A DNA stretch of 64,000 bases. It comes from Bacillaceae bacterium JMAK1. Lineage in GTDB: Bacteria; Bacillota; Bacilli; Bacillales; Marinococcaceae. The stretch is taken from contig JIBW01000004.1 in NCBI GenBank assembly GCA_012970285.1, positions 186,001-250,000 of the forward strand, given 5' to 3'. Shown here piece after piece: positions 47,022-48,838 of the stretch (its first letter is position 1; every line of letters starts with the position of its first letter). The notes beneath the pieces were generated by a model. That model saw only the letters and a list, made by a program, of their open reading frames with translations, had not been told where the DNA came from and ran no database searches. Both the position numbers and the translations under genes were made by a program.

Positions 47022-47036
47022 TGAGAATTATTTTCA
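47022..47036 (+). promoter_or_regulatory. Fur box 1
   Basis: TGAGAATTATTTTCA fits the 7-1-7 Fur pattern TGATAAT-N-ATTATCA with two changes. It ends nine bases before the -35 at 47045 and overlaps the stop codon region of the AlkC-like gene's flank. Confidence 0.65.
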
Positions 47037-47044
47037 ATTAGTTA

Positions 47045-47073
47045 TTGACACTAGTCTGAAAACCATCTAATAT
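47045..47073 (+). promoter_or_regulatory. sigma-A promoter flanked by Fur boxes
   Basis: TTGACA (47045-47050), 17-base spacer, TAATAT (47068-47073). A near-consensus promoter; start of transcription is expected about 47080. No coding start is near it. Confidence 0.8.
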
Positions 47074-47085
47074 AGTAAGTGACAT

Positions 47086-47100
47086 TGATATTCATTATCA
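47086..47100 (+). promoter_or_regulatory. Fur box 2
   Basis: TGATATTCATTATCA differs from the 7-1-7 Fur consensus at a single position. It lies over the expected transcription start of the small RNA, a classic repressor position. Confidence 0.75.
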
Positions 47101-47179
47101 ATTACTTATTTGAGAAGACGTTGTCGAGGTTCTCGCTACGTTTTGCTCTCAAACATCCCCCTTTATGTAATACCTATTG

Positions 47180-47216
47180 GCAATATGCCCTCCCAAGGCA
47201 TATTGCGCTTTTTTTT
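47180..47216 (+). terminator. terminator of the candidate small RNA
   Basis: GCAATATGCC and GGCATATTGC form a perfect ten-base stem with a CTCCCAA loop, followed by GC and eight T. It lies upstream of, not after, a coding gene. Confidence 0.92.
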
Positions 47217-47242: not shown

Positions 47243-47452
47243 ATGGATCACAAGGAAAACAAAGAGAACAATGGTGAACGAATCGAACGAATCATTAACG
47301 ATACGATTGAGAACATAAATGAAGCGGAAAATTTTCAACAAGCGCACCTTGGTGAAATGAGCGAAAAAGACCAGCAAGATCTTGATGAAAAAAACCGTCG
47401 AAGAAGAGACAGCGTTGACGCGTTGCGTCACGAAATTGAAGATGAGCGATAG
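47243..47452 (+). CDS. tlp: Tlp-type small acid-soluble spore protein
   Basis: A 69-residue charged protein that resembles B. subtilis Tlp: ERIERIINDTIENINEAENF then EKDQQDLDEKNRRRRDSVDA and RHEIEDER. Tlp is a minor spore-core protein made in the forespore. ATG 47243 follows GTGGGGTG; an in-frame upstream ATG falls in the small-RNA terminator and is rejected. A forespore-type promoter was not clearly seen. It supports endospore formation in this organism. Confidence 0.85.
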   Translation: MDHKENKENNGERIERIINDTIENINEAENFQQAHLGEMSEKDQQDLDEKNRRRRDSVDALRHEIEDER

Positions 47453-47535: not shown

Positions 47536-48435
47536 ATGGCTCTTTATGATTGCGCCATTATTGGAGGAGGAATCGCTGGAATTCAAGCCTCAATCCAACT
47601 CGGGCGTTACAAGCGAAATGTGCTCGTCCTTGATAAAGGCAAAGGAAGGTCAACACTTTGTCGGAAGTATCGCAACATCCTCGGCTGGCCAGATGGAGTA
47701 AGTGGTGAAGATCTTAGAAGGATCGGCAAACAGCAAGGAAAAATGCTCGGTGTGCATTATCGAACAGAAGAAGTCGTTGCCATTGAACGAGCCGATCATT
47801 TCCAACTGTTAACACGATCAGGGCAATCGTATGAAGCCAAGCGGCTTTTATTTGCTACGGGTGTGACAGATCCGAACCCTCTCCCGCAATTAGAGTCATG
47901 CCTCGGAAGCACTGTATATATTTGTCCAGACTGTGATGGATATGAAGTTCAAGGAAAAAAAGCACTCATTTTAGGCTCTGGGAAATCAGGCGTTCATATG
48001 GCGAAACGATTGCACCAATGGGCGAGCGAACTTATTTATATTAATCATACAAGTGAAGCAATCCGAGAAAAAGATAAAGCACAACTATTCGGCATGAAGG
48101 TTCATTACATCGAAGAGCGCATTCAAACCCCCCTCGTCACCGATCACCAATTTAACGGGGTGATTTTGAAATCAGGTGAATTAATTGAAGCGAAGCACGC
48201 ATTTATCGCCTTTGGGAAGATTACCCCACAAACAGACCTCGCCCGAAAACTAGGCTGCGAACGAATGGAAAACGGTCATTTGATTACTGAAGCAAGAACG
48301 AAAAAAACAAACGTCGAGCACATCTACGCAGCCGGTGATATCGGCGTACACGCTGAACAAGTGACCATTGCAATGGGTGAAGGCACGCTCGCCGCAGTAT
48401 GGATTGAGAAGTCGCTGGCGGAGGGTACAGTGTAG
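47536..48435 (+). CDS. thioredoxin-reductase-like FAD oxidoreductase
   Basis: A 299-residue flavoprotein of the thioredoxin reductase fold. The N-terminal FAD motif is AIIGGGIAGIQASIQLGR, the redox pair is CPDC in VYICPDCDGYEV near residue 135 (CATC in classical TrxB), and the second dinucleotide site is ALILGSGKSGVHMAKRL with a GxGxxG-like core. The C-terminal FAD motif is IYAAGDIG. A thioredoxin-like or ferredoxin partner is unknown. ATG 47536 follows GGGGGAATC. The stop codon TAG is the first TAG of the 21-bp array. Cytoplasmic. Confidence 0.82.
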   Translation: MALYDCAIIGGGIAGIQASIQLGRYKRNVLVLDKGKGRSTLCRKYRNILGWPDGVSGEDLRRIGKQQGKMLGVHYRTEEVVAIERADHFQLLTRSGQSYEAKRLLFATGVTDPNPLPQLESCLGSTVYICPDCDGYEVQGKKALILGSGKSGVHMAKRLHQWASELIYINHTSEAIREKDKAQLFGMKVHYIEERIQTPLVTDHQFNGVILKSGELIEAKHAFIAFGKITPQTDLARKLGCERMENGHLITEARTKKTNVEHIYAAGDIGVHAEQVTIAMGEGTLAAVWIEKSLAEGTV

Positions 48436-48838
48436 CAAGAGCGGGGTGCGGTGTAGCAAGAGCGAGGCCGTGTGTAGCAAGAGCGGGGCATGGTGTAGCA
48501 AGAGCGGGGTGCGGTGTAGCAAGAGCGGGGTGCGGTGTAGCAAGAGCGAGGCGTGGTGTAGCAAGAGCGGGGCATGATGTAGCAAGCGTGGGTCGAGGTG
48601 TAGCAAGAGCGGGGCATGGTGTAGCAAGAGCGGGGCCTGGTGTAGCAAGCGCGGGGTGCGGTGTAGCAAGAGCGAGGTGCGGTGTAGCAAGCGCGGGGTG
48701 CGGTGTAGCAAGAGCAAGGCGTGGTGTAGCAAGAGCGAGGCCAGGTGTAGCAAGAGCGAGGCCAGGTGTAGCAAGCGCGAGGCCTGGTGTAGCAAGAGCG
48801 ATGCCAGGTGTAGCAAGACCAAGCGCCTGGTGTACCAT
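48433..48838 (+). repeat. 21-bp tandem repeat array 2 (19 units)
   Basis: Units start at 48433 and continue every 21 bases to 48811, 19 in all; a decayed partial copy follows after 22 bases. Core is TAGCAAGAGC, the rest near GGGGYGYGGTG. Three or four units have TAGCAAGCG instead. The first unit supplies the stop codon of the upstream gene, and all later TAGs are in that same frame. A terminator at 48908 ends the transcript. The core and period match array 1 (18989), 29 kb away, with a different variable half, so the arrays are related but have diverged. Function unknown. Confidence 0.9.

Follow-up and report, generated by a model that had tools for sequence, protein, structure and literature searches.

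A probable Fur-controlled small RNA of Geomicrobium with predicted pairing at the ribosome sites of miaB, sdhC and sdaAB

A stretch of 64,000 nucleotides of contig JIBW01000004.1 from Bacillaceae bacterium JMAK1 (the window) was analysed, and a compact unit lies at 47022-47216 on its forward strand, with its elements in the order box 1, TTGACA, 17 bases, TAATAT, box 2, RNA and terminator. Fur box 1, TGAGAATTATTTTCA (47022-47036), has two mismatches to the 7-1-7 palindrome and stands upstream of the -35 element TTGACA (47045-47050), which reads TTGACT in a diverged relative, G003. The -10 element TAATAT occupies 47068-47073, and the promoter as a whole, TTGACA(17)TAATAT at 47045-47073, matches the consensus at 10 of 12 positions. 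Fur box 2, TGATATTCATTATCA (47086-47100, one mismatch), would lie just inside a transcript whose start we place seven bases after the -10 and whose end we place at a T tract, which gives a proposed small RNA of 137 nt (47080-47216). As RNA, box 2 is predicted to fold into a 5' hairpin (47084-47102). Downstream of it are a central hairpin whose UGC bulge is conserved (47109-47153, from the predicted fold and a four-genome alignment), a largely unpaired and conserved seed region (47154-47179) with CCCCC at 47157-47161 and UACCUA at 47171-47176, and an intrinsic terminator (47180-47216) consisting of a ten-pair stem at 47180-47206 with the loop CTCCCAA, followed by GC and T8. An earlier note on this DNA had described a near-consensus promoter between two Fur-type palindromes and a ten-base terminator stem with no open reading frame before it in the unit, and our analysis bears out both descriptions, with every element in place and no credible ORF. 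Promoter-like and terminator-like sites are common as such, with 6 of the former (2.0 expected) and 4 of the latter (0.9 expected) in 1.1 kb.

On the 3' side of the terminator lies a gene for a small acid-soluble spore protein Tlp (47243-47452; PF19824). The protein encoded upstream of the unit has a weak match to a DNA-alkylation-repair domain, and its nearest named relatives, at 83%, belong to Geomicrobium sediminis DSM 25540 and Geomicrobium sp. JCM 19038. Of the 13 loci found, the remaining 11 come from Bacteroidota records and match at 38-45%. The corresponding DNA-alkylation-repair-like gene of G003 (L004, 425-1520) is split over several frames, by decay or by sequencing error; the last of these frames crosses Fur box 1, with its stop at the 3' end of the box.

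The consensus Fur box, TGATAATNATTATCA, is a 7-1-7 palindrome, and in the 64-kb window just two sites, those at 47022 and 47086, come within two mismatches of it. Dinucleotide shuffles of the window (200) held a mean of 0.535 such sites, and in none of them did neighbouring sites fall 21-100 bases apart. With up to three mismatches allowed, 12 sites were found where 6.6 were expected, so that lone weak boxes carry little meaning. The whole genome (4.12 Mb, with three FUR-family genes) contains 65 near-consensus boxes with at most two mismatches, against 23 for a reversed pattern; the same counts were 62 and 23 in G001 and 48 and 20 in G003. Fifteen of the genome's box loci were fetched and 12 were read, with gene identities assigned by eye and without a profile scan. 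On that reading four of the 12 (L105, L108, L112 and L114) face siderophore-binding-protein-like genes, two face an AraC-regulator-like gene, two (two copies) face an ABC-transporter-like gene with a carboxylase-like neighbor, and the remainder face a reductase-like gene (one), only a short frame (two) or no gene (one). These sequence data suggest a probable role of such boxes in iron control in this genome. An operator for an iron repressor, a feature of FsrA and of the class of iron-sparing small RNAs, is present at the sequence level as the two Fur-type palindromes at the promoter.

In a DNA search of 61 genomes, which gave matches in 37, the whole unit was present in three close genomes (G000, the genome under study, with G001 and G002), and the diverged G003 matched at 78% over 155 bases; these four genomes were used for the conservation comparison. 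Of the loci found outside the genus, 26 were read by eye and share little beyond the Fur boxes and the promoter, and several of them precede siderophore-binding-protein-like genes. A Fur box-promoter-Fur box arrangement alignable to this promoter was seen by eye before such genes at L005, L006 and L022, which represent three other families. At L008 (1501-1660; G053, of another family), we noted by eye a Fur box, promoter and Fur box followed by a terminator-like hairpin with CCCCC in its loop, upstream of a flavodoxin-like gene, which may be a second iron-responsive RNA or an attenuator.

With a covariance model (R1) that leaves out the Fur hairpin of the RNA, one copy was found in each of the four Geomicrobium genomes compared. 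The 25 other genomes of the family yielded a sole match, in G005 at an E value of 0.94. From the order, 299 sampled genomes were searched under stricter filters, with a listing that does not show whether G002 and G003 were included, and yielded G000, G001 and four weak matches (G083, G099, G120 and G232; E values of 0.02-0.09). We took these four and the G005 match as chance; no Fur-like site with up to three mismatches lies within 400 bases of the middle of any weak locus, except for one three-mismatch site near L097. Between G000 and G003, the box 1 region (47022-47040) and the box 2 region (47086-47104) are each identical at 19 of 19 positions, the -10 at 6 of 6, and the stretch from the -10 to box 2 at 12 of 12, while the -35/-10 spacer agrees at only 4 of 17. 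This distribution of identities looks like a footprint.

The RNA at 47080-47216 is predicted to fold at -35.1 kcal/mol (z = -4.55), as well as which none of 200 shuffles folded, into the 5' Fur-operator hairpin, the central hairpin with its UGC bulge, a single-stranded CCCCC stretch and the terminator. Ensemble probabilities of being unpaired are 0.97-1.0 for the C-run, 0.91-0.97 for UACCUA and 0.44-0.58 for the AUGU between them. Folded alone, the G003 RNA also beats its own shuffles (z = -3.35), and its outer stem differs somewhat. Pairing was scored in the four-genome alignment on a structure that we had named ourselves from both sequences. All 91 of its 91 cells pair, compared with 28-52% for slid structures. 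Four of the 23 pairs carry double changes that keep the pairing, one in the central stem and three in the terminator (3 of its 10 pairs, in G003), and one-sided changes are found in three pairs. For four measures (paired cells, doubly changed pairs, doubly changed cells and covariation score), 3 of 500 shuffles reached the observed value; the count of further pair types is non-discriminating, as all 500 reached it. Within the central hairpin, the 13 pairs at 47111-47151 show one double change, three one-sided changes and none broken, and the two outermost pairs of the hairpin are lost in G003. Drawn from three close genomes and one diverged one, the covariation evidence is modest but consistent.

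The conserved seed reads CAUCCCC(C)UUUAUGYAAUACCUA in all four genomes, with a C-run of C5 in G000-G002 and C4 in G003. The earlier note had singled out two C-rich elements of the RNA, of which the CCCCC run holds as both unpaired and conserved, whereas the C-rich terminator loop is present in this species but not conserved (TCGGCTG in G003). The only ATG frame of at least six codons within the RNA of this species has 10 codons and lies in the terminator. These comparisons support the view that a unit without a credible ORF evolves like a structured small RNA. The combination of non-coding RNA, own terminator and conserved structure that characterizes the iron-sparing class is found here, the structure being a predicted one. 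From its sequence, the unit very probably encodes a Fur-controlled small RNA.

The reading that we favor, and consider probable, is a genus-specific, Fur-repressed and probably iron-sparing, trans-acting small RNA of Geomicrobium. In the presence of iron, Fur would occupy both palindromes, before the -35 and just after the start, and block transcription; in its absence, transcription would yield the 137-nt RNA and stop at the intrinsic terminator. The unpaired CAUCCCC(C)UUU could then pair with G-rich ribosome sites and block translation, and the repression of iron-using enzymes, most likely those of miaB, sdhC(AB) and sdaAB-sdaAA, would spare iron.

Candidate targets were ranked in stretches of G000 and G003 that cover about a fifth of the genome, using crude gene prediction. 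Of 323 reciprocal best pairs, 14 were dropped, which left 309 in which both species have a ribosome site. Each pair was ranked on its duplex energy in whichever species gave the weaker value, in a narrow window (-35 to +12) and a wide one (-58 to +12), the latter chosen after UAGGUA had been noticed upstream of sdhC. In the narrow and wide windows respectively, miaB (TIGR01574, a radical-SAM enzyme) ranked 1 and 3 of 309, sdhC 10 and 1, and sdaAB (TIGR00719, the beta subunit of an iron-sulfur-dependent serine ammonia-lyase) 8 and 12. The gene for aconitase, acn (citB), ranked 18-19 and 28-29 and leuC 61 and 62, while rlmN, mqnC-like and mhqO-like genes, named by eye, ranked 156 or worse; all five are at background against permuted RNAs. 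Of the two enzymes that the earlier note had named as places to look for pairing, succinate dehydrogenase has a well-ranked predicted duplex, its sdhC standing 10th or first, and aconitase does not rise above permuted RNAs. In a sample of 398 G000 genes that have a ribosome site, weaker sites having been dropped, nine reach the -21.3 kcal/mol of sdhC.

When the RNA columns were permuted jointly (160 trials), ranks as good as those observed were obtained 4 and 3 times for sdhC, 2 and 1 times for miaB, and 2 and 6 times for sdaAB. At least three of eight iron genes fell in the top 12 with 2 of the 160 permuted RNAs in either window, and an equal or better mean log rank of the eight was seen in 2 and 0 of 160. 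A rank test on these eight genes, whose list was drawn up by eye and not blind, with some ranks already known, gave P values of 0.015 and 0.008; with three later operon genes added it was weak (P = 0.085 and 0.038), and a motif-based Fe-S list of five pairs showed no enrichment (P = 0.43 and 0.32). The reversed RNA gave ranks of 83 and 17 for sdhC, 55 and 64 for miaB, and 78 and 95 for sdaAB. Near-complements of the seed (15-mer, up to two mismatches) numbered 8, 9 and 8 in G000, G001 and G003, against 9, 4 and 6 for the reversed seed, which is no clear excess, and the counts for G000 and G001 include the RNA locus itself. Some near-complements precede genes, such as a thiD-like gene in both G000 and G001; none was convincing.

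The cleanest predicted contact is that with miaB, where AAAGGGGAUG, located over the ribosome site at -13 to -4, would pair with CAUCCCCUUU in both species; the duplex in G000 leaves out one C. At sdaAB the C-run is likewise predicted to cover the ribosome site in both species. The sdhC gene was found in all four Geomicrobium genomes, and its ribosome site reads AGAGGGGGA in G000-G002, where the RNA has C5, and AGAGGGGA in G003, where it has C4. This joint change of C- and G-run lengths is one event, and miaB and sdaAB keep G4. Contact at the sdhC ribosome site is predicted in both windows for G000 and in the narrow window for G003, at -16.4 (rank 38 of 309 for that species). The best wide-window duplex of G003 (-24.5, pairing CCCUUU with AAAGGG and UACCUAC with GUAGGUA) lies at -30 to -53, upstream of the ribosome site, so the first rank in the wide window shows no single conserved contact. 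A two-anchor model for sdhC, with the C-run on the ribosome site and UACCUA on UAGGUA, was dropped, the best contacts of G000 and G003 being different; because of this difference we set our estimate for sdhC lower. On these models, sdhC is a plausible true target in a judgment that leans slightly against it, and miaB stands about equally near the balance. Action by pairing on the mRNAs of some iron enzymes is, on these predictions, rather likely.

A test set beforehand concerned lut/glc-type genes (PF02754), which were predicted to fall in the best 5% (about -18). Ten of 14 loci were scored, and in G001 and G003 some gene starts were not reached; the prediction missed, with a GlcF-like gene at -15.0 (17.5% of 724 genes), a FadF-like gene at -12.8 (33%), and a LutA-like gene, found only in G003, at -9.9 (70% of 460). 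Given this miss, the regulon, if iron-sparing, differs from that of FsrA; it is not a copy of it. The FsrA-like logic put forward in the earlier note stands in part. It is supported by prediction, since the sampled pairing sites with better conservation include the ribosome site of sdhC, but acn, leuC and the lut/glc-type genes do not follow it.

The same data bear on a reading that we consider unlikely but the strongest of the alternatives, in which a Fur-regulated small RNA has another job, titrating an RNA or protein or acting on mRNAs other than those of iron enzymes, and the miaB, sdhC and sdaAB matches are what any C-rich RNA gives. C-runs fit strong G-rich ribosome sites generally, and well-scoring pairs include DinB-like, PgsA-like and MreB-like genes, which by eye are not iron genes; the missed lut/glc-type prediction and the position of the best G003 sdhC duplex off the ribosome site also agree with this reading. 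Against it, three iron-enzyme genes stand in the top 12 of 309, a result rare among the permuted RNAs, and in both species the contacts predicted for miaB and sdaAB lie over the ribosome site.

Kinship with FsrA was examined with Rfam models. A tRNA scan and an Rfam scan of the whole window at gathering scores found nothing, and the FsrA model (RF02273) had no match at the locus up to an E value of 10. None of the 61 relatives was over the model's cut-off, even though 52 had some match at E values up to 10; 11 of 14 controls matched, one of them (presumably B. subtilis, which was among the 11) over the cut-off. By eye, the ten best weak matches (L031-L040) are terminators and coding sequence, with no Fur-boxed small RNA among them, and FsrA membership, which the earlier note had inferred, was rejected. 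Three other families gave weak matches at the locus that we took as chance, namely sau-5949, rliB and Aar (RF02375; 27.3 bits, E value 0.038, against a gathering score of 60), the Aar alignment beginning in the promoter and containing several non-standard pairs; no other Rfam family matched there. We consider it very unlikely that the RNA is a diverged FsrA orthologue below the reach of the model. It has the same type of regulator, a C-run and one predicted target in common with FsrA, and FsrA homologues are stated to occur across Bacilli, Staphylococci and Listeria in the available part of PMC12871923, but this has to be set against the model's silence at the locus and in the relatives and against the nature of its ten best weak matches.

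In the available portions of PMC9410917 and PMC12871923, FsrA of B. subtilis is described as Fur-controlled and C-rich, binding the Shine-Dalgarno sequence of targets that include sdhC. The Geomicrobium RNA shares sdhC as a predicted target, and differs in having no covariance match and no support for citB, leuC or lut-type targets. FsrA works with the chaperones FbpA, FbpB and FbpC, and its targets also comprise citB, leuCD and lutABC. IsrR of staphylococci has two Fur boxes at its promoter, unpaired C-rich regions and genus-wide conservation, and is reported to be non-orthologous to other iron-sparing small RNAs despite shared targets (PMC9410917, in part); it represses miaB at the Shine-Dalgarno sequence (PMC11448259, in part). 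Compared by description, the two RNAs are alike in their two Fur boxes, genus-wide conservation, unpaired C-rich region, predicted Shine-Dalgarno pairing and miaB, and differ in that IsrR has 174 nt and three C-rich regions and the Geomicrobium RNA an estimated 137 nt and one conserved C-run. RyhB, PrrF and MrsI, also iron-sparing and non-orthologous to IsrR (PMC9410917, in part), share the physiological logic but belong to other bacterial groups. In layout the Geomicrobium RNA resembles IsrR, and its predicted targets recall those of both FsrA and IsrR; no homology to FsrA was detected.

Our favored reading of a genus-specific iron-sparing RNA can be extended, tentatively, to the suggestion that Geomicrobium invented its own such RNA, unrelated to FsrA and IsrR, which converged on sdhC and miaB and in which the transcribed Fur operator doubles as the 5' hairpin. 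Iron-sparing RNAs have been described in only a few lineages, and this one, if true, would be a further independent case. It would mean that the solution arises repeatedly and reaches the same few mRNAs, here in a lineage of the Bacillales without an FsrA-model match. The predicted targets miaB, sdhC and sdaAB, with leuC and glcF as predicted non-targets, form a compact set. Among the papers listed in our literature searches, none, judged from its listing and the opening of its abstract, dealt with a small RNA or with Fur of Geomicrobium.

Two further alternatives take the RNA to be part of a message. It could be a leader or attenuator of the tlp gene, whose start at 47243 is 27 bases past the T tract, but a strong terminator stands between them and G003 retains the RNA with no tlp frame listed after it within the locus read, so that we consider this highly improbable. 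Fbp are Fur-regulated short basic proteins of B. subtilis, and an mRNA for a small protein of that type is the least probable alternative: a TTG frame here and an ATG frame in G003 do open at corresponding positions downstream of the Fur hairpin, beginning with RRR(C/H)R, but no Shine-Dalgarno sequence is seen before them by eye, they diverge through indels after 14-15 codons, the frame of this species continues through the terminator, and substitutions track RNA pairing.

Further downstream, directly after an oxidoreductase gene, 48430-48818 contains 18.5 copies of the 21-base unit GTGTAGCAAGAGCGGGGCGCG. With a period that is a multiple of three, the array keeps several frames open, and the repetitive ORFs that result look spurious.
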